64,000 bases of DNA, from contig NZ_AQOR01000008.1 of NCBI RefSeq assembly GCF_009846755.1, positions 1 through 64,000 of the forward strand, given 5' to 3'. Source of the DNA: Alcanivorax sp. S71-1-4 (GTDB taxonomy: Bacteria; Pseudomonadota; Gammaproteobacteria; Pseudomonadales; Alcanivoracaceae). The notes beneath the pieces were generated by a model that was not told the DNA's origin, did not search any database, and saw only the letters and a list, made by a program, of their open reading frames with translations. How positions within the stretch are numbered: the first letter of the stretch is position 1; every line of letters begins with the position of its first letter. Positions 4,910 through 16,427 of this stretch are shown here, in pieces. Position numbers and translations under genes: made by a program.

Positions 4910-7066
4910 TCAATCAAGCGGGATGATCTGCGCGCTGACGTCGATCTTCTGGAACAGCCAGTCGTGCAGCCCATCGAACAGCAGCGGCATGAAGGCGATC
5001 AGGATCAGTGCGGTAAACATCACCGCCATCGGCAGCAGGTATTTTTCATACCGCACCCAGAAACTGCCATGGCTGAGTTTGGCGTTCTCCACTTCGTCGT
5101 CGCCAACCACCTGTCGCGTCAATAGATGGTTCAACGCCACGGGGGGCGTCAGGTACCCCAGCTCGAAGGCCACCAGCGTGACGATCCAGAAATGCAGCGG
5201 CGCGATGCCGTTGGCAAAGGCGATCTGTGCCAGCGTCGCGTTGACCAGGATGACCGCGCCAAGCGGGTCCATGATCATGCCGATGAACACCAGCGTGGCC
5301 ACCAGCATGGCCATGGCAATCCAGATCGACGGGAAGGCGTCCGGCACGTTTTCCATCATGCCGCTGCGCTCGATGATGCCGCCGACGCAGGCGGACATCG
5401 CCATCAGGATCAGCAGCGCACCGATATGCCCGGTGGTCTCGTTGGTGGCACGACGTACCGCCTGCTCCAGGTTGCGGGGCCGGTCGATGCCTTCGGCGCG
5501 GTCTTCCTCGGCGTGCGCCTCGCGGCGGGCACGGGGCGTGAGCACGTATTCGTAGATCAGGATCGCCAGCAGCACCACCGGCAGGATGATCGGTGCGGAG
5601 AACTCATCCAGGCGACGGTCCAGCACGAAGCGGAAGAACAGCACCACCGCCATCAGCACGATCACATACGGAATGATCGGCTTCAGCAGCTTGAGGCTGG
5701 CCGGCAGCGCCTGCCCGAACGGCGCGATGCGGGCCGGTTCCTTGCGGGCGAACTGCGAATAGATGAAGAACAGGAACAGGGTGAAGAAGAACACCTTGAT
5801 GCCGGAGTTGAACAGCTCGGTGGTGGTCACCGCGTTGTTCAGTGCAGCGATGATCACCACAACCAGACAGGGCCGCAGCACCACACCCATGGAGCCGGAC
5901 ATCGCGGTGGTGGCCAGCGCCATCTGTGGCCGGGCGCCGGCACGCATCAGTTCGGCGTAGATCACGGCACCGGCAGCGATCACGAAAATCCCCGACGCGC
6001 CGGTGTAGGCCGTGGGCAGTGCGGTCACCGCCAGTACCACAAAGCACAGCAGTTCCGGCGACATGTGCCAGGGACGGAACACATTGAACACCAGCTGCGC
6101 CAGGCGGGTCTGCTTGAGCATCATCCCGATCCAGATATACAGGGCCAGGTTCAGGAACAGCGTGGAGAGCTCCATGATCATGCCCAGGTACACGCTGATG
6201 CCGTGGTAGTACTCATCCATGATGAAACGCAGGCCGGCATTCAGGGCCATGAAGCTGTACAGCGGGATGGTCAGCAGCGCCTTGCCCCAGCCACCGCCGG
6301 ATTCCATGTCTTTCGGCGGGCGTACCAGCTGGTAGATGTTGATGGCGGCAAGCAGGGTGAAGCCGGCAATCCAGAACTGGTGCAGGTAGAAATGGCCGAC
6401 CTGGATGCCGTCGGCCATGCTCATGATTTCACGCTCGCGGTAAACGATGGCGGACACGGCGAGAATGGAGTTCGCGCCAAGTTGCGCGAGCGTGGACACA
6501 TAGTGATCGCGAACAGTGCGCATCGGGCGCAGCGCGATGTGGTGGCGCATCACGGTCGTCGTGGCGGCGCAGATCAGCAACAGCAGGCACAGCAGCAGGC
6601 GCTTGTAGGCGCCCAGTTCGGTCACCGCCATGGCCACGGTGGTTTCCACTGCACGGAAGGCTTCCACGGACGGCGTGATGCGTGAGGCGACGTGCTCGTA
6701 GCGGTCCCATCGCTCCTGGCACACTTCCTGAGAGCGGATCACCGAGCGACGCACGGCATCTGCGTCGATATCGGTGCCCAGCAACCCGGCCAGCGGGTCG
6801 TTCGCGGCGGTGGCTTCGCGCTCGGCGATGGCCCGGGCCACGTCGGCATCGATATCCCGGTCCCGTTGGCAGGTGGGCTCACTGGGATTGCTGCGCAGCA
6901 GGAAGTATTCCTGCCAGGTGTTCTCACCGATTTTCAGTAACTGGGAGTGAATGATTTCGCCGGAGGCCAGAAAGATGGTGATAAGCAGGATCACCAGTGT
7001 GGGTAATGACGAAATCCATTCGCCAATCGAACGATTGGCAAGCGTGAAACGCGAGGTTGCTTCCAT
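4910..7066 (-). CDS. TRAP transporter fused permease (DctQ-like region plus DctM), copy 1
   Basis: This 718-residue polytopic inner-membrane protein belongs to the TRAP dicarboxylate-type secondary uptake family. The C-terminal two-thirds has DctM-type helices with GASGIFVIAAGAVIYAELMRAGARPQMALATTAMSGSMG, a motif run typical of large TRAP permeases, and FELGYLTPPVALNHLL. The first about 300 residues carry one helix (21-37), a soluble segment (about 40-150) with two cysteines (C66, C116), then further helices that probably replace the separate small permease DctQ. The substrate is unknown. It is a tandem paralogue of the gene at 7667-9823, differing at scattered positions only. The leader CCGGGTGACAAATGGA is also shared between the copies. 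Confidence 0.85.
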   Translation of the reverse strand: MEATSRFTLANRSIGEWISSLPTLVILLITIFLASGEIIHSQLLKIGENTWQEYFLLRSNPSEPTCQRDRDIDADVARAIAEREATAANDPLAGLLGTDIDADAVRRSVIRSQEVCQERWDRYEHVASRITPSVEAFRAVETTVAMAVTELGAYKRLLLCLLLLICAATTTVMRHHIALRPMRTVRDHYVSTLAQLGANSILAVSAIVYREREIMSMADGIQVGHFYLHQFWIAGFTLLAAINIYQLVRPPKDMESGGGWGKALLTIPLYSFMALNAGLRFIMDEYYHGISVYLGMIMELSTLFLNLALYIWIGMMLKQTRLAQLVFNVFRPWHMSPELLCFVVLAVTALPTAYTGASGIFVIAAGAVIYAELMRAGARPQMALATTAMSGSMGVVLRPCLVVVIIAALNNAVTTTELFNSGIKVFFFTLFLFFIYSQFARKEPARIAPFGQALPASLKLLKPIIPYVIVLMAVVLFFRFVLDRRLDEFSAPIILPVVLLAILIYEYVLTPRARREAHAEEDRAEGIDRPRNLEQAVRRATNETTGHIGALLILMAMSACVGGIIERSGMMENVPDAFPSIWIAMAMLVATLVFIGMIMDPLGAVILVNATLAQIAFANGIAPLHFWIVTLVAFELGYLTPPVALNHLLTRQVVGDDEVENAKLSHGSFWVRYEKYLLPMAVMFTALILIAFMPLLFDGLHDWLFQKIDVSAQIIPLD

Positions 7067-7303
7067 TTGTCACCCGGTTTGTTGTTATCGAACATGTTCC
7101 GGGGTCAAGGAAGGCCCGGAACCAGGCTCCCTCGCGGTCTTGCGCCGCAATGGGAAACAGGCAGTCTAGGCGAGCTACGCAAAGGTGCCTACCAGAAGAG
7201 GGAAAGAAAAGCAGCTTTTCCTGATTTTTAGGTCAGGGAGGGGAAGGGTTATTTGGCGTTTTCGCAGGACGGGGCAAGCCCGGGCCGCCCCGCAATGCCA
7301 CCT

Positions 7304-7474
7304 TCAGCCGTAGATCATGCGGTCGACGATAAACGCTGACACCGCCACGAAAGCGACCAGCGCCGCCAGCGCCAGCATCAATCGCCACAGGGGCTTGAAG
7401 CTTGCCGGCAGGGGTTCGGTCGGGCGTTGTGAGCGCGGGGTGCGGGTGGGGCGGGTATCCGGTGTCTGGGTCAT
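7304..7474 (-). CDS. Small single-pass membrane protein, hypothetical
   Basis: A 56-residue frame starts MTQTPDTRPTRTPRSQRP and ends in one hydrophobic helix (about residues 32-51, LMLALAALVAFVAVSAFIVD). It lies between the two permease copies, in the same direction. The Shine-Dalgarno signal is weak (CGGATG). Basic N-terminus and a C-terminal tail anchor are plausible for a real small protein, but it could also be chance coding in GC-rich DNA. Confidence 0.4.
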   Translation of the reverse strand: MTQTPDTRPTRTPRSQRPTEPLPASFKPLWRLMLALAALVAFVAVSAFIVDRMIYG

Positions 7475-7535
7475 GGGGGCATCCGAGTACGCTGGTCTGG
7501 AACGGGCACCTGCCGGTGGGCAGTGGCCACACAAA

Positions 7536-7561
7536 CGAACGGGCCGTTTCCGGCCCGTTCG
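7536..7561 (-). terminator. Perfect 10-bp hairpin, putative terminator
   Basis: CGAACGGGCC and GGCCCGTTCG flank a 6-base loop. On the reverse strand it is followed by TTTGTGT. It lies about 100 bases past the second TRAP permease stop. Confidence 0.5.
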
Positions 7562-7629
7562 CGTTCCATTATGACAGCTGGTGCCGCCAAAGGTTAACAG
7601 GCTATTGAGAAACAGCCTGTGCCGATGGC

Positions 7630-7659
7630 CTGGAAAAGCCTCCGCTGAGGCTTTTCCAG
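7630..7659 (-). terminator. 13-bp perfect hairpin just after TRAP permease 2
   Basis: CTGGAAAAGCCTC pairs with GAGGCTTTTCCAG around a 4-base loop, beginning 7 bases after the stop at 7667. The AT-rich stem base supplies Ts on either strand. It probably ends the permease transcript. Confidence 0.65.
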
Positions 7660-7666
7660 TGCGTGA

Positions 7667-9823
7667 TCAGTCAAGCGGGATCACCTGACGGGCCACGTCG
7701 ACCTTCTGGAACAGCCAGTCGTGCAGGCCATCGAAGGCCAGTGGCAGGAACGCCACGATCAGCAGCGCGGAGAGCATCACCGCGATGGGCAGCAGGTATT
7801 TCTCGTAACGGGCCCAGAAACTGCCATGGGTGACCTTGGCGTTTTCCACCTCGTCGTCGCCGACCACCTGCCGTGTCAATAGATGGTTCAGCGCCACGGG
7901 CGGCGTCAGGTAACCCAGCTCAAAGGCCACCAGCGTCACCATCCAGAAGTGCAGCGGGGCGATGCCGTTGTTAAAGGCGATCTGGGCAATGGTCGCGTTC
8001 ACCAGGATCACGGCGCCGTAGGGGTCCATGAACATGCCGATCAGCACCAGTGTCACGACCAGCAGGCCCATGGCCAGCCAGATGGACGGGAAGGTGGCCG
8101 GCAGGGCTTCCATCACGCCAGTGCGCTCGACGATGCCGCCGACGCTCACCGACAGGGCCATCAGCATCAGCAGGGCGCCGATATGGCCGGTGGTCTCATT
8201 GGTGGCGCTGCGCAGCGCGTGTTCAAAGGTCTTCGGACGCTCGATGCCGTCTTCTGCGGCAGCACGGATGTTTTCTTCCCGCTTCGCCTTGCCGACGATC
8301 AGGTATTCATAGATCAGAATGGCCAGCAGCACGACGGGCAGGATGATCGGCGCGGAGAATTCATCCAGACGACGATCCAGCACGAAGCGGAAGAACAGCA
8401 CAACCAGGGCGATCATGATCACGTATGGCACGATCGGTTTCAGCAGCTTGATGCTGGCCGGCAGTGCCTGGCCAAACGGTGCGATGCGGGCCGGTTCCTT
8501 GCGGGCGAACTGCGAATACATAAAGAACAGGAACGCGGTCAGGAAGAAGATCTTCAGGCCGGAGTTGAACAGCTCGGCGGTGGTTACTGCATTGTTCAGG
8601 GCAGCGATGATCACCACCAGCAGGCAGGGCCGCAACACCACACCCATGGAGCCGGACATCGCGGTGGTGGCCAGCGCCATCTGTGGCCGTGCACCCGCAC
8701 GCATCAGTTCGCTGTAGATCACCGCACCGGCCGCGATCACGAAGATACCGGAGGCGCCGGTGTAGGCGGTCGGTACCGCCGTCACGATCAGCACGACGAA
8801 GCAGAGCAGTTCCGGTGACATGTTCCAGGGACGGAAGACGTTGAACACCAGCTGTGCCAGACGGGTCTGCTTGAGCATCATCCCGATCCAGATATACAGC
8901 GCCAGGTTCAGGAACAGGGTGGAGAGCTCCATCATCATGCCCAGGTACACGCTGATGCCGTGGTAGTAGCCGTCGAGCATGAAGCGGGTGCCGGCGGTAA
9001 GGCACATGAAGGTGTACAGCGGAATGGTCAGCGGTGCCTTGCCCCAGGAGCCTCCCGGTTCCATGTCTTTCGGCGGGCGCACCAGTTGCCAGATGTTGAT
9101 CGCGGCCAGCAGGCCGAAACCGGCGATCCAGAATACGTGCAGGTAGAAATGGTTGACCTGAATGCCGTCAGCCATGCTGATCATCTCGCGCTCGCGGTAG
9201 ATGATCGCGGAGACCATCAGCATCACATTGGCGACCAACTGGGCCGTGACGGAGACATAGTGGTCACGTGTGGTGCGCATCGGACGCAGGCAGATGTGAT
9301 GCCGGGTCAGGGTGGCGGTGGCGGCACAGATCAGCAGCAGCAGGCACAGCAACAGGCGCTTGTAGCCGCCGAGCTCGGTGACGGCCATGGCAACGGTGGT
9401 TTCCACACTGCGGAACGCCATGACGGCCGGGGTGATACGCGACTGTACCCGCTCATAACGTTCCCAGCGGCCTTCGCACACTTCCTGGGAGCGCTCCAGC
9501 GACCGGCGAATGGCGTCCTCGTCGATATCCGTCCCGAGCAGGCCGGCCAGCGGATCATCCGCCGCGTTCGCCTCGCGCTCGGCGATGGTCCGGGCGACAT
9601 CCGCCTCGATGTCCCGATTGCGTTCACAGGTGGGTTCGCTCTGGTTGGCACGCAACAGGAAGTATTCCTGCCAGGTGTTTTCACCGATTTTAAGCAACTG
9701 CGAGTGAATGATTTCGCCGGAGGCGAGGAAAATGGTGATTAACAGGATCACCAGAGTGGGTAATGACGAAATCCATTCACCAATCGAGCGATTGGCGATC
9801 CTGAAGCGCGATGTTGTTTCCAT
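7667..9823 (-). CDS. TRAP transporter fused permease (DctQ-like region plus DctM), copy 2
   Basis: The 718 residues are the same length as copy 1 and aligned throughout by eye: the same ANRSIGEWISSLPTLVILLI start, the same C66 and C116 pair, the same GASGIFVIAAGAVIY core and the same FELGYLTPPVALNHLL end. Differences cluster in the soluble N-terminal segment and the loop near residues 510-530 (VGKAKREENIRAAAEDG versus TPRARREAHAEEDRAEG). It encodes the energised membrane unit of a TRAP uptake system and presumably accepts substrate from one of the nearby binding proteins. It has its own terminator hairpins and is separated from the binding-protein operon upstream by another terminator. Confidence 0.85.
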   Translation of the reverse strand: METTSRFRIANRSIGEWISSLPTLVILLITIFLASGEIIHSQLLKIGENTWQEYFLLRANQSEPTCERNRDIEADVARTIAEREANAADDPLAGLLGTDIDEDAIRRSLERSQEVCEGRWERYERVQSRITPAVMAFRSVETTVAMAVTELGGYKRLLLCLLLLICAATATLTRHHICLRPMRTTRDHYVSVTAQLVANVMLMVSAIIYREREMISMADGIQVNHFYLHVFWIAGFGLLAAINIWQLVRPPKDMEPGGSWGKAPLTIPLYTFMCLTAGTRFMLDGYYHGISVYLGMMMELSTLFLNLALYIWIGMMLKQTRLAQLVFNVFRPWNMSPELLCFVVLIVTAVPTAYTGASGIFVIAAGAVIYSELMRAGARPQMALATTAMSGSMGVVLRPCLLVVIIAALNNAVTTAELFNSGLKIFFLTAFLFFMYSQFARKEPARIAPFGQALPASIKLLKPIVPYVIMIALVVLFFRFVLDRRLDEFSAPIILPVVLLAILIYEYLIVGKAKREENIRAAAEDGIERPKTFEHALRSATNETTGHIGALLMLMALSVSVGGIVERTGVMEALPATFPSIWLAMGLLVVTLVLIGMFMDPYGAVILVNATIAQIAFNNGIAPLHFWMVTLVAFELGYLTPPVALNHLLTRQVVGDDEVENAKVTHGSFWARYEKYLLPIAVMLSALLIVAFLPLAFDGLHDWLFQKVDVARQVIPLD

Positions 9824-10030
9824 TGGTCACCCGGTTGTTGTTATGCGACGAACGCCAGGGGCGCGATATCGCTCCGTCCACTGAAATGCCGGTGCCAAAA
9901 GAGCCATAGTCCTGCGGGCGTGCGCCGATGTCGTTGTCATTCTGGGTGCGCAACACAACCAATCTGACCGCAGAAGCCTGATGAGCAGCCGGCCGTTAAA
10001 ACAAACGCCTTTCCGGGGCGCTGATACGAC

Positions 10031-10054
10031 AAAAGCGGGGCGTTGCGGCCCCGC
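10031..10054 (-). terminator. Rho-independent terminator of the binding-protein operon
   Basis: GCGGGGC pairs with GCCCCGC around a 6-base loop and is followed on the reverse strand by TTTTG. It lies 40 bases past the stop at 10094. Confidence 0.75.
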
Positions 10055-10093
10055 CTGAGTATTGCCTGTCTTATCCGGTATGGTCGCCGGTCT

Positions 10094-11113
10094 TTACTCG
10101 CGCTGGTCGCTGCACTCGGCGCGGGCGGCATCGAGGCGGCAACGGATATTGCGCAGCAGCGACATCATATCCTTGTTATAGATGCCTTGCTCGGTCAGTT
10201 CGATCCGGGCATCGCGCATCATTTCGTCGTAACGCAACTTGTCCTGGTCGGCGATCTCGATCCACCACTTGTCCTCAATCTCGTTGTTGGCGCTGTTGAT
10301 GATGCGCATCGCACGATCAAATACCGAGTTGAAGAAGTAGCTGCGCGACCAGGCGGCGAACTCGCTGTCGAACTTGTTATGCCGGGCAATGACCTGAAGG
10401 GTCAGCTGGCCGAGCACATAATCCACGATCCCGCCGTTGGGTTCCATCCCTTTATAGAGTTCCAGGGCGCTGTAGGCCATGACCGGTGCGAAGCAGATAT
10501 CCACGCTATGGTTATTGAAGCGGCCGGCAAAATTGGTTATGTCCGACATGACCGGGGACATGCCGACGCTGGCGGCCATCTTGCCCTGGGCCGCGTCATA
10601 CTCCATGACCGCGATGGACTTGCCCGCCAGGGCGTTGACGTTGTTGATCGCCTGGTCTTTCACGAACAGGTAGGCCGCACCCATCGGGGCGATCCCCATT
10701 ACCTCATAGGAGCCGCTGCGCAGGTTCGGGGTGATGCGCGGGCTTTCGCTGGCCAGCACCTGGACCACGGTGCGCAGGGCGTCGTAGTTCGGAATGGCCC
10801 CGATGGAATCCAGGCTGCCGGTGTAACTGTTGAACTGGCGACCGCGGATGCCGGTGATCGCGGCGGCGTCGCACTGGCCGGCCTTGAGGTCTTCGGCGGC
10901 AATGTTCTCGTCGGTGTAGGCCTTCAGTTCGAGGTCGTACCCCTGCTCGATGGCAGCGGTCCTGTAGTCCCGCATGATGTTGTACATGTCACCGGAGGTG
11001 CCGATGATGTCGAACACGCAGAGGGTGCGTTTTTCGGCCGAGATGGCCGGGGCGGATACGCCGAGCAGCAGGGACGAGGCCGCCGCCGCGATAAGAGCTT
11101 TACCGTAACGCAT
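10094..11113 (-). CDS. TRAP-associated periplasmic solute-binding protein (AdeT1/2-like family), copy 1
   Basis: 339 residues with a Sec signal peptide (KALIAAAASSLLLGVSAPAISA, cut after about residue 25). The mature protein has the family pattern LCVFDIIG, DLKAGQCDAAAITGIRGRQFN, YTGSLDSIGA, MGAAYLFVKD, FNNHSVDICFAPVMAYSALELYKG, and a C-terminal cysteine pair in RNIRCRLDAARAEC. From memory this resembles the AdeT1/2-type putative solute-binding family, which has been linked in name to efflux; here the neighbourhood argues for TRAP uptake. I chose ATG 11113 (GGAGAC upstream, signal peptide follows). The gene follows the TatT-like lipoprotein gene with a 65-base gap. Confidence 0.75.
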   Translation of the reverse strand: MRYGKALIAAAASSLLLGVSAPAISAEKRTLCVFDIIGTSGDMYNIMRDYRTAAIEQGYDLELKAYTDENIAAEDLKAGQCDAAAITGIRGRQFNSYTGSLDSIGAIPNYDALRTVVQVLASESPRITPNLRSGSYEVMGIAPMGAAYLFVKDQAINNVNALAGKSIAVMEYDAAQGKMAASVGMSPVMSDITNFAGRFNNHSVDICFAPVMAYSALELYKGMEPNGGIVDYVLGQLTLQVIARHNKFDSEFAAWSRSYFFNSVFDRAMRIINSANNEIEDKWWIEIADQDKLRYDEMMRDARIELTEQGIYNKDMMSLLRNIRCRLDAARAECSDQRE

Positions 11114-11178
11114 GATGCTGTCTCCGTTGTACTGCCTGTCCATGGCCGGTGCCCGCAGCGGGGCACCAGCCTGCCGGG

Positions 11179-12204
11179 TCACAGTAGGTCGTCGATATTG
11201 ATGGTGGATTCAGAAGACTTGCGGGTGTCGTCCCAGAAGGTCCCCAGGTTGCCGTAGGGGGTCCGTTTGCCGGTGGCTTCAGTCCACATGCGGTCGGAAA
11301 TACCCTTGATCAGCATGCCGGCGATCGAATCGATCATGGCGTAGTTGGGGTCGAGGTTCTTGTCGTTGTTGGCGAACTCGCGAATGGCACGGCGGACCCG
11401 CTGGTCATCCCCGACGCTGTAGGCGGAGATAGCGTACAGGGCGCTCGGCAGGCGCACGCCCTGTTCAAAGCCCAGGCGCGTGGCGCGTTCAAGCTCGGCC
11501 CAGGCGTCGGCGTTAGCCGGTTTCAGCATCGGCAGGATATTCCACAGGGCGGCACGGCCACCCCGGGGCACGCCCCACCATTTCTCGTTGTCCAGGCAGG
11601 CCAGGCCGCGCTCGACCTTGGCCGCCACATCGCGTGGCACGCCCACGGCGGTATCGGCAGTGGCATCGTTGAGCAGCGACTGGACGCCGCTGATCTGGCC
11701 GATCATCCATACCAGTTCGTCAAAGTCACTGCGCAGGCGCGGGCACTTGCCGTTGTCGGCTTCGCCGAATTCGACGAAGGAGCGGCGGTAGGCCTCGTAC
11801 TGACGGCGGGCGGAGATCTCGGCCAGTTCTTTCTGTCTGGAACGGGCGTCCTGTGCTTCATTGACACGGCCTTCCTTGACCGCGCGCATGTAGCGCAGCT
11901 CTTCTTCGAGTGCCATGGATTCGGTACAGGTGGCGGCCACGGTGTAAACCAGTGTGGCGAGTTTGTCGGGGTCGGAGCCTACGGATTCGAATGACAGCAG
12001 CAGCGGGGTGAGTGCCTCGCCGGTGGCACAGGCCATGCCGACGTCCTGATAGGTCATGAGGTAGGGCACCATTTCTGCGCGCCCGTAACTGACCAGCACA
12101 TCGCCGGTGGTCTTGTAGACCATCCCGCACCCCGGTAAGGCGGCCAAAGCGGCGCCCAGAGCTGCGACGCGGCAGGCACCGCGAACGCGAAAACGGAACT
12201 TCAT
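11179..12204 (-). CDS. TatT-like TRAP-associated helical lipoprotein
   Basis: 341 residues. A signal peptide ends in lipobox LPGC, so C26 should be lipidated. The remainder is almost wholly helical with TPR-like spacing (for example AWAELERATRLGFEQGVRLPSALYAISAYSV) and ends FWDDTRKSSESTINIDDLL. This fits the TRAP transporter T-component (TatT) family of TPR lipoproteins that partner periplasmic binding proteins, although I infer this from architecture and context rather than a decisive motif. It is first in an operon with the binding protein at 10094-11113 and divergent from the UbiB-like kinase. GGAG lies 9 bases before the ATG. Confidence 0.6.
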   Translation of the reverse strand: MKFRFRVRGACRVAALGAALAALPGCGMVYKTTGDVLVSYGRAEMVPYLMTYQDVGMACATGEALTPLLLSFESVGSDPDKLATLVYTVAATCTESMALEEELRYMRAVKEGRVNEAQDARSRQKELAEISARRQYEAYRRSFVEFGEADNGKCPRLRSDFDELVWMIGQISGVQSLLNDATADTAVGVPRDVAAKVERGLACLDNEKWWGVPRGGRAALWNILPMLKPANADAWAELERATRLGFEQGVRLPSALYAISAYSVGDDQRVRRAIREFANNDKNLDPNYAMIDSIAGMLIKGISDRMWTEATGKRTPYGNLGTFWDDTRKSSESTINIDDLL

Positions 12205-12454
12205 ACTGCGTTCTCCATCAATTGCATAATTATTGTTCTTCCGCTCGGTCGGACGATGCGCGCAACGCCCGCCGATAATGTCAGGCCAACACTACCGAAG
12301 CACGAAAATTGGCACAAGCGCCGATTACAAAAAGTAAGGCAAGTCATTACAAATACTTGTGTTGAGTTATCATTGCCGCAACGCTGGCCGGAAGTGATCA
12401 TTGATCACACGCAGGTGGGCATTTGTTCCACTCGAACACAGGATGGTTCCGGGG

Positions 12455-13801
12455 ATGAGAAAATATACTGAGGTTGAGCAGCGACGTGCACGCATGGCCG
12501 GTCGGCGTGCCGGGCTTTTATTGGCCGAAGATACCGCGCGCGGCGGCTTGAGAGTCTTGCAAACTGCGTCGGTTCTTGCTCGCACCGGGGCCGGCTGGTT
12601 GCTCGGCCGACGGCCATCCCTGCCGGTGCTGCTGCGCGAAACATTCGAGTCACTGGGTACCACCTATATCAAACTGGGGCAGTTCATTGCCAGTTCGCCG
12701 TCGCTGTTCCCGGATGAGTATGTCGAGGAGTTCCAGAAGTGCCTCGACAAGACACCGGCACTGCCTTTCCGCTTTATCCGCGACACGGTGGAGGCAGAGC
12801 TTGGCCGGCCGCTGGAGGACGTCTACGCCTGGGTGGACCCGCAACCGCTGGCCTCGGCCTCTATTGCCCAGGTGCACGCCGCACGCCTGCACAATGGCGA
12901 CGACGTGGTCATCAAGGTGCAGAAACCGAATGTGCGCAATGTCCTGCTGACCGATTTCAACTTTCTCTATTTTGCGGCGCGGGTGGTCGAGATGTTGACG
13001 CCGGGCCTGTCGCGGTCGGCGGTGTCCGGTGTGGTGGAGGAACTGCAGGGCTCGATGCTGGAGGAATGTGATTTCCGGCAGGAGGCGGACAACCTTGAAC
13101 GCTTCAACGAGTTTCTCAACATGACGCAGAATACCCGTGCCGTGGCGCCGACACCGTACCGGGAATTTTCCACTGCGCGGGTGCTCACCATGGAGCGCTT
13201 CTTCGGCGTGCCGCTGACTAACCTGGAAATATTGCGCCAGCATGTGCCGGACCCGGCGGAAACCCTGATCACGGCGCTCAACACCTGGTTCTCCAGCCTG
13301 ATGCTGTGCGATTTCTTCCACGCCGATGTACACGCCGGCAACCTGATGCTGCTACGCGATGGCCGTATCGGCTTTATCGATTTCGGCATGGTCGGGCACA
13401 TGCGAAAGGAGACCTGGGAAGCAATGGCCCGGTTTTTCGACGGCATCGGCCGCGGTGATCACCGGCTGGTCGCCGAAGCGATGGCCACCATCGGCATGAC
13501 CCGTGAAAAGGTGGATGTGGATGCTCTGGCGCGTGACATCGAACGCTTCCAGGACAAGCTCGCCAATCTGGACCCGACCAGCCTGCTGGAAGGGGGGCGC
13601 CATGATCGTGAGGTCAATCGCCTGTTGCTCGACATCGTGCATATCGGCGAGCACCACGGCATCCGCTTCCCACGCGAGTTTGCCTTGCTGCTGAAGCAGT
13701 TTCTGTACTTTGATCGTTATGTGCAGGCGCTGGCGCCGGAACTGGACATGTTTGCCGACACGCGGGTGGATATCTTCGCGACGCTGGACCAGTTGCATTG
13801 A
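12455..13801 (+). CDS. ABC1/AarF/UbiB family atypical kinase
   Basis: 448 residues. It has the hallmark KxGQ motif in TTYIKLGQFIASSPSLFPDEY, an alanine-rich nucleotide loop PLASASIAQVHAA, VVIKVQKPNV with the ATP lysine, a catalytic DFFHADVHAGNLML, and a metal-binding IGFIDFGMVG. Members are atypical kinases or ATPases linked to quinone and lipid metabolism. True UbiB has two C-terminal membrane helices, which are not evident here, so it is more likely an ADCK-like paralogue than UbiB. I chose ATG 12455 (GGGG upstream); a GTG- or ATG-extended frame begins at 12401. A palindromic repeat begins 17 bases after the stop. Confidence 0.8.
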   Translation: MRKYTEVEQRRARMAGRRAGLLLAEDTARGGLRVLQTASVLARTGAGWLLGRRPSLPVLLRETFESLGTTYIKLGQFIASSPSLFPDEYVEEFQKCLDKTPALPFRFIRDTVEAELGRPLEDVYAWVDPQPLASASIAQVHAARLHNGDDVVIKVQKPNVRNVLLTDFNFLYFAARVVEMLTPGLSRSAVSGVVEELQGSMLEECDFRQEADNLERFNEFLNMTQNTRAVAPTPYREFSTARVLTMERFFGVPLTNLEILRQHVPDPAETLITALNTWFSSLMLCDFFHADVHAGNLMLLRDGRIGFIDFGMVGHMRKETWEAMARFFDGIGRGDHRLVAEAMATIGMTREKVDVDALARDIERFQDKLANLDPTSLLEGGRHDREVNRLLLDIVHIGEHHGIRFPREFALLLKQFLYFDRYVQALAPELDMFADTRVDIFATLDQLH

Positions 13802-13817
13802 GCGGGCTGGTGGGGGC

Positions 13818-13984
13818 TAGGGTGGGTAGAGCCAAAGGCGAACCCCACCATGTCCATGCAGCGCACTGCTCGCACAGAATCATCGAAACTACCCACCTCC
13901 CAAGCCGGGTGATTTCGATGATTTTGCAGGAGTGATTAACGGGCATGGACACGGTGGGTTTCGCCTTTGGCTCAACCCACCCTA
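13818..13984. repeat. 167-bp palindromic repeat element, copy A
   Basis: The left arm (13818-13859, TAGGGTGGGTAGAGCCAAAG...) and right arm (13943-13984) are inverted repeats of about 42 bases with few mismatches, separated by about 83 bases. A related copy lies at 33481-33645, with fragments at 44363 and 52809. No coding capacity is visible. It resembles a MITE or other small non-autonomous element, inserted between convergent genes. Confidence 0.8.
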
Positions 13985-13988
13985 CGCA

Positions 13989-15152
13989 TCATTCAACCGG
14001 GTTCGTGCATTCCGAGCGTGAGGGCTCAACCGTGCAGCGAATGCGCCGTTGCAGGGTAAGCATCTCGGCACTGTAGTAGCCTTCGTCACGCAACTGGATG
14101 CGCGCATCCTGCATCATGGTTTCGTATTCCTGCTTGTCTTCGTCCGGAATGCTGACCCACCAGTGGTCCGGGACCTTGTCGGCTTCTTCCTGCAATCGGG
14201 CCATGATCTCCTCATAGCCTTCGAAGAATGCCTCGCGCACCAGTTGCGCCACTTCCGCCGGGAACTTGTCTTCCCTGCCGATCAGCTGCATGGTGATCTG
14301 CGCCAGTGGATAGTCAATGATGCCACCGTGCTCGCCGAGCCCCTTGTACAGTTCCAGCACTTCATAAGCCACCAGCGGGGCCGGCAGTACATCGACACTG
14401 CCGTTGTTGAACTTGGTCGGTGCGCTGACGATATCCGACGCCACCGGCGTGGCGCCGATCTGCGCCACCATGCGGGCCTGGGTCGGATCATAATCCAGCA
14501 CCGGCACACGCTTGCCGGCGGCTTTGGCCAGCGAATTGATCTTGCGGTCGTTGACGAACACATAGGCGGCGCCACCGGGGGCGATGCCCATGACGGTATA
14601 GCCGTGGGTGGTCATCCGGTCCGCCAGGCGCGGGTCGACCAGCACCTGCAGCAGCATGCGCATGTGCTCGTCAGTGGGCAGGCCGCCGACGGAATCGATG
14701 GTGCCGGTGAACTGGTTGAACAGTCGCGCACGCAGGCCGGTCATCAGGGCCGCTTCGCAGCGGCCGGATTTCAGCTCTTCCACCATCACGCCTTCGTTGG
14801 TGTAGACCTCCAGCTGGATATCCACGCCATACTCCAGCAGGCGCAACCGCTGGTCCTGTGCGGCCATGAAAATCGGCCCGGCGCGGCCGGCGATATCCCA
14901 GATGCAGACAGTGCGGCGCAGCGGTTCGGCGGGGGAGAAGCCCGTCAGCCGTTGCATCGCACGGATGCGTTCGTCCACGCTCTTCGACGTGTCATAAACA
15001 ATCGTCCGCAACTGGCTGACCAGTTCCGGTGTCAGGTTCACACCAGGGGCGACGCGGGCCAGCTCGGCCTGCTGGGCGGCGGTGAGGGTCACGTCGGCAT
15101 TGGCCAGCGCGCTGCCGCACAACAGCATCAGACAGAACAGCAATTGCTTCAT
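13989..15152 (-). CDS. TRAP-associated periplasmic solute-binding protein (AdeT1/2-like), copy 2
   Basis: 387 residues with a signal peptide (LLFCLMLLCGSALANA). Compared with the copy at 10094 it has an extra N-terminal helical region of about 50 residues (LTAAQQAELARVAPGVNLTPELV...), then the shared family pattern: TVCIWDIAGRAGPIF, LKSGRCEAALMTGLRARLFN, GGAAYVFVND, KFNNGSVDVLPAPLVAYEVLELYKGLG, and C-terminal RRIRCTVEPSRSEC. AGGA precedes the ATG. Only 4 bases separate its stop from repeat copy A. It should deliver solute to one of the two fused permeases. Confidence 0.75.
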   Translation of the reverse strand: MKQLLFCLMLLCGSALANADVTLTAAQQAELARVAPGVNLTPELVSQLRTIVYDTSKSVDERIRAMQRLTGFSPAEPLRRTVCIWDIAGRAGPIFMAAQDQRLRLLEYGVDIQLEVYTNEGVMVEELKSGRCEAALMTGLRARLFNQFTGTIDSVGGLPTDEHMRMLLQVLVDPRLADRMTTHGYTVMGIAPGGAAYVFVNDRKINSLAKAAGKRVPVLDYDPTQARMVAQIGATPVASDIVSAPTKFNNGSVDVLPAPLVAYEVLELYKGLGEHGGIIDYPLAQITMQLIGREDKFPAEVAQLVREAFFEGYEEIMARLQEEADKVPDHWWVSIPDEDKQEYETMMQDARIQLRDEGYYSAEMLTLQRRIRCTVEPSRSECTNPVE

Positions 15153-15180
15153 GTTTTTTCCTGATAGTTGCTATTTTTTA

Positions 15181-15233
15181 GCTGCGAGCAATGAGACAGG
15201 GCCTTTAACTCGCGTCTCGAGGCTCGCAGTCCA
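15181..15233. repeat. Inverted CTGCGAGC/GCTCGCAG hairpin in the gap between binding-protein genes
   Basis: CTGCGAGC (15182-15189) pairs with GCTCGCAG near 15222-15229. The segment TGCGAGCAATGAGACAGGGC is closely matched by TGCGAGCAATGAGGCGGGGC near 20271, suggesting a second small dispersed repeat. It could end the transcript from 16427, although no T-run follows on that strand. Confidence 0.35.
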
Positions 15234-15242
15234 CAGCTTTTT

Positions 15243-16427
15243 TTATTCCTTCGGATTGGCACATTCCGAGCTGTCCGGTTCAATGCGGCAGCGGATGCGC
15301 ATTTGCAGGTGCAGCATTTCCGGGTGGTAATACCCGAGGTTGCGCAGTTCGATACGGGCGTCCTGCATCATGGTGTCGTATTCCTGCTTGTCTTCGGCCG
15401 GAATCTGCACCATCCATTTCTCCGGAATGCGGGATTCCTCGTTATGAATGAATTCCATGATGGCGTCGTAGCGTTCGTTGGCGGCCTCGCGCACCAGCTG
15501 CGCGATTTCGTTCGGGAATTTGGCGCGGTGGCCGACCAGTTGCATGCTGATCTGCGCCAGCGGGTAGTCGATGATGCCGCCGTCCGGTTCCAGGCCCTTG
15601 TAGAGTTCCAGCACCTGATAGGCAAGCAGCGGGGCCGCCAGTACATCCACGACCCCGTTGTTGAACATCCCGGGTGCGCGGGTAATGTCGGTGGATACCG
15701 GCGTGGCGCCGATGCCGGACACCATGCGTGCCTGCATCGGGTCAAAATCCAGTACCGCGACTTTCTTGCCCGCGGCCTTGGCCAGGCTGTTGATCTGTTT
15801 GTCGTTGACGAACACATAGGCGCCGCCGGCGGGGAACACACCCAGGACGACGTACTCGCCCTGTACCATGCGGCCGGCGTTGCTCGGGTGCGACACTACC
15901 TTGAGCAGGGTTTTCATGTGCTCATCGGTGGGCACGGCGCCGACGGCATCAATGGTGCCGGAAAAAGTATTGAACAGCCGCGCGCGCATGCCGCTCATCA
16001 GGGCGGCGTCGCACCGTCCGGCCTTGAGCTCGTCCACCATCACGCCTTCATTGGTGAACGGAATCATTTCCAGGTTGATGCCGTATTCCAGTGCGCGCAC
16101 GCGCTCGGCTTCGGCAATGGTAAACACCGGGCCGGCGCGGCCGGCGATATCCCAGATGCAGATCTTGAACGGGGTGCGCTGATCCGGCGGCAGGTCAGTG
16201 AGGCCGGAGAGGCGGCCGATGGCCTTGAGGCGGTCATCGACGCTCATGTTGGAACTGAGGGAAATTTCCCGCATCAACTCGATCAGCTCCGGCGTAATGT
16301 CCACGCCGGGGGCCAGTTGTTGCAGCATGGCCTGCTGTTCGGGTGTGAGGGACACCTCGTTTTCTGTTGCGGCGTGCAGGCCGGCCACAGTGAGAAACAG
16401 TGATAGCGCAATAATTATTTTTTTCAT
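15243..16427 (-). CDS. TRAP-associated periplasmic solute-binding protein (AdeT1/2-like), copy 3
   Basis: 394 residues with a signal peptide (KKIIIALSLFLTVAGLHA). It is closely related to the copy at 13989: the same N-terminal extension (SLTPEQQAMLQQLAPGVDITPEL), ICIWDIAGRAGPVF, LKAGRCDAALMSGMRARLFN, FNNGVVDVLAAPLLAYQVLELYKGLE and C-terminal MRIRCRIEPDSSEC. I chose ATG 16427 because the signal peptide follows directly and GGACGTGGGACC precedes it; the frame extends to 16535 without a signal peptide. Lower sequence match to copy 1 than to copy 2 suggests copies 2 and 3 duplicated most recently. Confidence 0.75.
   Translation of the reverse strand: MKKIIIALSLFLTVAGLHAATENEVSLTPEQQAMLQQLAPGVDITPELIELMREISLSSNMSVDDRLKAIGRLSGLTDLPPDQRTPFKICIWDIAGRAGPVFTIAEAERVRALEYGINLEMIPFTNEGVMVDELKAGRCDAALMSGMRARLFNTFSGTIDAVGAVPTDEHMKTLLKVVSHPSNAGRMVQGEYVVLGVFPAGGAYVFVNDKQINSLAKAAGKKVAVLDFDPMQARMVSGIGATPVSTDITRAPGMFNNGVVDVLAAPLLAYQVLELYKGLEPDGGIIDYPLAQISMQLVGHRAKFPNEIAQLVREAANERYDAIMEFIHNEESRIPEKWMVQIPAEDKQEYDTMMQDARIELRNLGYYHPEMLHLQMRIRCRIEPDSSECANPKE

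Follow-up and report, generated by a model that had tools for sequence, protein, structure and literature searches.

A TRAP-type transporter cluster of Alcanivorax sp. S71-1-4 with AdeT receptors, a TatT-like lipoprotein and two fused permeases

The AdeT gene cluster and its protein families

We analyzed a gene cluster for a tripartite ATP-independent periplasmic (TRAP) transporter in Alcanivorax sp. S71-1-4, whose genome is 4.18 Mb. The cluster lies on contig C76 (NZ_AQOR01000008.1), within the 64,000-nucleotide stretch examined here (the window). As transcribed from the minus strand, its genes are in the order SBP-B, SBP-A, lipoprotein, SBP1, perm2, a 56-aa open reading frame (ORF) and perm1, with a plus-strand kinase gene between SBP-A and the lipoprotein gene (Table 1). 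A sequence-only reading of this region had listed two fused permeases, three binding proteins and a lipoprotein. These genes are present, with permeases of equal length (718 aa), binding proteins of a single family and a lipoprotein with an LPGC lipobox, but the kinase and the 56-aa ORF had been missed. We consider it fairly probable that the locus encodes an AdeT-type tetratricopeptide repeat-protein-associated TRAP transporter (TPAT), in which a TatT-like periplasmic lipoprotein (T) and soluble AdeT receptors (P) work with a fused QM permease and accessory receptors share the permeases. The parts of this proposal read directly from sequence are gene content, T-P-QM order, family-level co-occurrence and receptor excess.

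Table 1. Genes and candidate transcription signals of the cluster, by position in the window
Feature	Position	Strand	Evidence
perm1 (P0001), fused TRAP QM permease, downstream copy, Leu602	4910..7066	-	DctM PF06808 E 1.7e-17; SiaQM/IseQM profile and fold matches
56-aa small protein, single transmembrane segment, conserved 3' of permease in Alcanivoracaceae	7304..7474	-	23/33 Alcanivoracaceae loci
11-bp hairpin, downstream of perm2	7536..7561	-	z -4.8
13-bp hairpin directly after perm2, candidate terminator	7630..7659	-	z -6.4
perm2 (P0002), fused TRAP QM permease, upstream copy, Tyr602	7667..9823	-	DctM E 1.4e-16
GC-rich hairpin with TTTT tail after SBP1, candidate terminator	10035..10054	-	z -1.6, weak, not above shuffles
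SBP1, core AdeT1_2 receptor (P component), Sec-type signal without lipobox	10094..11113	-	PF19582 E 3.8e-87; core clade; signal by eye
TatT-like lipoprotein (T component, P0004)	11179..12204	-	TatT fold match Z 16.4; lipobox Cys26 invariant
ABC1/UbiB-like atypical kinase	12401..13801	+	PF03109 E 3e-60; UbiB NCBIfam below cut-off; 29/29 linked loci
SBP-A, AdeT1_2 receptor, extra N-terminal stretch	13989..15152	-	PF19582 E 1.2e-80
SBP-B, AdeT1_2 receptor, extra N-terminal stretch	15243..16427	-	PF19582 E 2.1e-83

Distribution of the three components was compared in two collections, a class set of 369 genomes and an order set of 145 genomes, using a permease profile (A2, E <= 1e-20) and a lipoprotein profile (A1, E <= 1e-6). 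The alignments A1, A2 and A4 were hand-picked subsets of 21, 30 and 34 rows, respectively, and loci L099, L115 and L117 were left out of A5. PF19582 (AdeT1_2) was found in six of the 369 class genomes, and the permease profile matched in those six; the lipoprotein profile matched in five of the six and nowhere among the remaining 363 genomes. In G210, the one genome without a lipoprotein match, only four bases separate the permease from a contig end at its upstream (T/P) side, and that break probably explains the miss. Across the order set, the same 26 genomes carried receptor, permease and lipoprotein, and the remaining 119 gave no match to any of the three at these thresholds. These genomes are related, so the co-occurrences are not independent events. 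T-P-QM order on one strand was seen in 30 clusters, distributed over 25 of the 26 genomes. By these genome comparisons, the core unit is T-P-QM, and extra receptors are common. Because the genome distributions of receptor, permease and lipoprotein match, we assign AdeT at this locus to TRAP receptors and not to an efflux system.

The three window receptors scored 293, 272 and 281 bits with PF19582, for which the Pfam cut-off is 27. They also matched DctP and TRAP_S1, both below threshold, and no membrane-fusion-protein family (resistance-nodulation-division [RND] efflux) was among their Pfam matches at E <= 1. TatP (Tp0957) was absent from the hits of the receptor profile. SBP-A and SBP-B are 59% identical to each other, and SBP1 shares 43% identity with SBP-A and 39% with SBP-B. 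SBP-A and SBP-B cluster with other accessory receptors, in a region of the receptor tree that holds no core receptors and has weakly supported deep forks. A quick tree built from 93 case-locus receptors required, on its starred branches, no fewer than 15 switches of the 'orphan' label, which indicates that receptors became accessory, or were left without partners, on many occasions. Four Cys residues (32, 81, 325 and 334 of SBP1) are invariant in receptor alignment A4, and they suggest two disulfides in AdeT receptors.

Receptors outnumber permeases in many genomes. The window genome encodes six AdeT receptors, two lipoproteins and two permeases of the matching family, and among the 26 order genomes receptors were more numerous than permeases in 16, equal in eight and fewer in two. 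In total these genomes contained 93 receptors and 41 lipoproteins, with 54 permease places when fragments are included; the count omitted a short G465 fragment, a 166-aa G462 permease fragment and the second halves of split permease matches, and the fragmented assembly G427 (570 contigs) has a permease count inflated to seven. Thirty-six receptors, in 32 clusters, had no T or QM gene within 8 kb, although clusters near contig ends may appear receptor-only. The sequence-only reading had proposed mix-and-match receptors that widen the solute range; the excess of receptors, six to two in this genome, supports that idea indirectly. A second pair of SBP1 and lipoprotein genes lies elsewhere in the same genome with no permease nearby (contig C22, locus L022, 6904-9102), and its lipoprotein is 64% identical to P0004.

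The lipobox Cys26 of P0004 is invariant across relative sets of 21 and 29 proteins. Searches of P0004 against Pfam and NCBIfam gave no match, and the PDB offered no convincing sequence relative. Since sequence routes to TatT failed, both with Pfam on the 21 and 29 members and with profiles against the PDB, a fold comparison was needed. An AlphaFold2 model was built from 21 sequences (mean predicted local distance difference test [pLDDT] score of 73; residues 1-54, 71-77 and 324-341 poor). In VIA re-alignment of this model, the top four rows were all T-components: TatT 3u64 (Z 16.4, root mean square deviation 4.0, 243 aligned), TatT in 4di3 (16.2), the TPAT entry 8g52 (15.5) and the sterol-binding BstC 7t1s (12.6), followed by a designed barrel (11.7). 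Mostly helical models can reach Z of about 13-14 without clear kinship, so genomic context matters for this assignment. The lipoprotein gene is directly 5' of a receptor gene, as TatT precedes TatP in Treponema pallidum, where TatT, TatP and TatQM are Tp0956, Tp0957 and Tp0958 by locus tag (PMC8407342 and PMC5812351). The model thus identifies P0004 as a predicted T-component of a TPAT-type TRAP transporter.

Both window permeases matched DctM, as did all 29 members of the permease family. DctQ matched only two of the 29, weakly, and assignment of the Q half therefore relies on fold and length. The permease resembles SiaQM/IseQM by profile and by fold, the AlphaFold2 model being used solely as agreement with the profile matches. 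Its closest relatives in a collection of 84,980 species, which may omit records identical or very close to the window, are in the Alcanivoracaceae, including Alcanivorax limicola, at 71% identity. A hydrophilic stretch of ~100 residues after the first transmembrane segment (TM1; residues 45-143 of perm1), with invariant Cys66 and Cys116, occurs throughout the family. This stretch is probably periplasmic, and the T lipoprotein may dock there.

Permease duplication and residue 602

The two permeases had been described as near-identical, which overstates their similarity: they share 82% identity in protein and 81% in DNA. The proportion of synonymous differences (pS) is 0.42, with values between 0.24 and 0.61 in different stretches of the pair, and with an estimated synonymous divergence (dS) of ~0.61 and dN/dS of ~0.2. 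Among 33 Alcanivoracaceae loci, 19 had two permease ORFs and 14 had one, with L052 counted among the former owing to a split ORF. L042 and L052, whose ORFs are broken, were left out of the permease trees and of the invariant-column, repeated-change and main residue-602 counts.

A permease phylogeny, proposed as a check by the sequence-only reading, pointed to multiple origins of the downstream copies. Six label changes were needed to account for the 15 downstream copies in a 36-copy permease tree, and the starred branches alone forced five in two of three gene segments. Second copies downstream of the first thus arose about six times in the Alcanivoracaceae, as judged from these trees. One ancient duplication with gene conversion was considered as an alternative and set aside. 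A tree with a single downstream clade was rejected (log likelihood lower by 636, approximately unbiased test p 4e-53), and the 56-aa ORF, which separates the two permease copies in the window, comes behind the final copy wherever else it was found in a two-permease locus, a difference in position that also points to separate duplication events. Gene conversion in patches may nevertheless have occurred, given the variation of pS along the pair.

The downstream copy was on the longer branch in six of six lineages. At 266 columns invariant in the 21 upstream or single copies, downstream copies deviated at 9-28, and the diverged single copies L023 and L025, each left out in turn, deviated at 13 and 15. 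In repeated-change tests devised after inspection of the data, 19 columns had changed in at least two lineages, which is not above a variability-weighted null (p 0.09), and eight had changed in at least three, which is (0 of 5000 draws). Column 602 deviated in all six lineages; the probability of any such column under a variability-weighted null was 5e-5, again post hoc. Tyr602 was found in 28 of 28 first or single copies, and all 17 downstream copies had another residue (Leu in nine, Phe in six and Met in two). Four stand-alone copies all had Met and branched with the downstream copies of L045 and L046. The rows behind these counts include many close relatives. L042 (Tyr, then Phe) and L052 (Tyr), though left out at first, are consistent with the pattern. 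In the wider permease family (29 rows), position 602 was Tyr in 13, Phe in 11 and Met or Ile in four rows of one clade, with Leu in perm1. Phe alone is therefore not diagnostic of a second copy.

Residue 602 aligns with L523 of HiSiaQM of Haemophilus influenzae, in a profile match that is weak but anchored by a motif. L523 is listed among the residues lining the putative substrate site in PMC10942642. Because the two permeases differ at this aligned position, they probably prefer different ligands. The second permease is rather unlikely to have kept an unchanged function, either as a copy for dosage or as a duplicate in decay. Its 82% identity and intact ORF agree with that alternative, and so do the deviations at invariant columns, but single copies L023 and L025 deviate to a similar degree, dN/dS is low and the aligned Na2-site residues are retained. 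Moreover, Tyr602 was replaced solely by Leu, Phe or Met in all second copies examined. A recent duplication under dosage selection, as earlier suggested, fits poorly with the synonymous divergence, the longer downstream branches and the absence of Tyr602 from downstream copies. The sequence comparisons favor specialization of the second permease rather than dosage. More tentatively, the permeases may be substrate filters of their own, with the duplicated AdeT-TPAT permease retuned at the same pocket Tyr in at least five lineages, giving shared receptors and two lipid specificities. If so, TRAP selectivity would be a two-stage code of receptor and permease and not a property of the receptor only.

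Linked genes and transcription signals

The ABC1 kinase gene was found in all 29 Alcanivoracaceae loci that hold the lipoprotein and permease genes, inside the cluster and on the opposite strand. Close kinase relatives lay near clusters in three of 73 loci (L098, L106 and L108, from L055-L127), representing two other families, and a distant ABC1 gene was present in one of 40 control stretches. A link of the kinase to lipid handling is our guess. The 56-aa ORF, found next to the permease, is unannotated; it carries the motif TEPLP...VDRxIYG, and no Pfam or NCBIfam model scored over its cut-off.

Division of the cluster into separate transcription units, as suggested by the sequence-only reading with terminators between them, is plausible. 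Hairpins were picked by eye and scored as z against shuffled sequences. Those after perm2 were strong, whereas the SBP1 hairpin did not exceed shuffles and a general scan found 16 terminator sites against 11.7 +/- 4.1 expected, with no overall excess. Weaker hairpins follow SBP-A (13935-13988, z -3.1) and lie between SBP-B and SBP-A (15160-15242, z -2.9); 13802-13860 gave no hairpin signal (z -0.1). The interval between SBP-A and the kinase gene (13802-13988) contains imperfect inverted repeats with 20-bp and 13-bp arms that resemble repetitive extragenic palindromic elements.

Proposed mechanism and relation to known systems

We propose that a hydrophobic and probably carboxylated ligand, fatty-acid or sterol-like, would enter the periplasm, where the T lipoprotein would hand it to an AdeT receptor. 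The loaded receptor would dock on one of the two permeases, which would drive uptake by an ion gradient, with sodium as the predicted ion, as in SiaQM. SBP1 would serve as the core receptor, and the same two permeases would also be fed by accessory receptors, namely SBP-A, SBP-B, two tandem receptors on contig C11 and the SBP1 copy that is paired with a lipoprotein on C22.

A hydrophobic cargo is likely by homology to known TPATs. PMC5812351 describes hydrophobic interiors for TatT and TatP and places proteobacterial TPATs mostly in hydrocarbon degraders. That link is thus already published, and those TPATs may already include AdeT-type clusters. Some neighbors of AdeT receptors, picked by eye, bear weakly on the cargo. 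The tandem receptors on C11 (L021, 6051-12007) adjoin a lipase chaperone and two lipase-like genes, one of them for an alpha/beta-hydrolase lipase; a penicillin-amidase-type acylase lies near the C22 pair. Elsewhere, receptors neighbor FadL/TodX and a flavin-containing monooxygenase (FMO)-like protein (L073), P450 and ferredoxin (L082), a glucose-methanol-choline (GMC) oxidoreductase (L080) and an FMO-like protein (L083).

Counts of lipid genes around receptors give weak support for a lipid cargo. All p-values are rough, as the control positions overlap one another and the case loci share ancestry; L056, on the same contig stretch as L068, was left out. Lipid genes lay within five genes at 17 of 75 loci and 33 of 266 control positions. 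A putative-operon version, a second try after a near-null test with neutral references, gave 10/75 versus 9/342 (p 0.0005), with six of its 14 references coming from case loci. Omitting the four source loci left 6/71 versus 9/342 (p 0.03), or 6/39 versus 9/285 (p 0.005) where any operon partner was present. With E. coli-derived references and any operon partner, the counts were 4/43 versus 7/285 (p 0.04).

Several results weigh against the AdeT-TPAT proposal. For the cargo, enrichment within three genes was slight (13/75 loci versus 39/420 control positions, p 0.03, or 4/39 control centers, p 0.24) and vanished with E. coli-derived references only (4/75 versus 21/420, p 0.54); the operon version with these references gave 4/75 versus 7/342 (p 0.12). 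For the lipoprotein, none of 29 family members matched the TatT family PF16811 at E <= 1, and Foldseek ranked TatT first for the P0004 model at an E of only 0.067. The permease model is poor (pLDDT 60, best VIA Z 9.0), and divalent anion/sodium symporter (DASS)-type transporters score nearly as well as TRAP in its fold comparison. The SBP1 signal sequence, judged by eye, has no Cys lipobox, unlike the lipoprotein TatP; a lipoprotein P component is a T. pallidum trait and may not be definitional for TPATs. Finally, loose sharing of receptors sits badly with the statement in PMC5812351, citing Mulligan et al. 2009, that DctP-permease contacts are specific and not promiscuous.

It is also conceivable, but quite improbable, that each receptor serves its own solute class, some through other TRAP permeases, with no shared hub. 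The genome does hold four strong DctM genes outside the permease family (C77, C46, C45 and C21), and SBP-A and SBP-B fall in the part of the tree without core receptors, where deep forks are weakly supported; the identical distributions of AdeT and the permease family in the 369 and 145 genomes would be unexpected if ordinary DctM permeases were the partners. A role of AdeT in an RND drug efflux pump, as annotated in Acinetobacter, is favored by its name, by earlier reports and by PMC7687900, which gives one section the title 'AdeT1 forms an active efflux pump in E. coli' and reports a fourfold rise in erythromycin minimum inhibitory concentration with AdeT1 propionylated at Lys280, but in that paper wild-type AdeT1 did not make E. 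coli resistant, PMC11467057 assigns the Pfam family of AdeT to TRAP-like periplasmic binding proteins, and gene content, co-occurrence and family placement here lead us to reject RND efflux for this locus as extremely improbable.

The AdeT-TPAT proposal ties AdeT, a protein filed under drug efflux, to a lipid-type importer through matching genome distributions, and supplies its likely lipoprotein and permease partners. Among the open-access listings and passages searched, none joins AdeT receptors to a TatT-like lipoprotein and this permease family as one system; passages of PMC7284936 and PMC11970703 contained nothing relevant. The repeated permease duplications are natural experiments on the role of the permease in TRAP substrate choice. 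To our knowledge, inner-membrane transport of hydrocarbon-derived lipids in oil degraders is poorly understood.

Among known systems, the TPAT of T. pallidum shares with this locus the T-P-QM order (by locus tag), the TatT-like lipoprotein fold and a fused permease. In the Alcanivorax cluster, by contrast, the receptor is of the AdeT type and lacks a lipobox, the lipoprotein does not match PF16811, there are several receptors for each permease, the permeases are in tandem and an ABC1 kinase is linked. DctPQM/SiaPQM TRAP transporters have the DctM domain and a related fold in common with it, and their DctP receptor is weakly related to AdeT; the extra lipoprotein and the receptor excess set the cluster apart, as does the hydrophilic stretch after TM1, which SiaQM appears to lack judging from its length. 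Tripartite tricarboxylate transporters (Bug/TctC) with orphan receptors also combine many receptors with few membrane parts (PMC5812351), whereas their families are unrelated and the receptor excess here is modest. The BstABC sterol transporters include BstC, which has the T-component fold and binds sterols (PMC10942540), but they combine it with RND-type BstA and phosphonate-type BstB instead of a TRAP permease.

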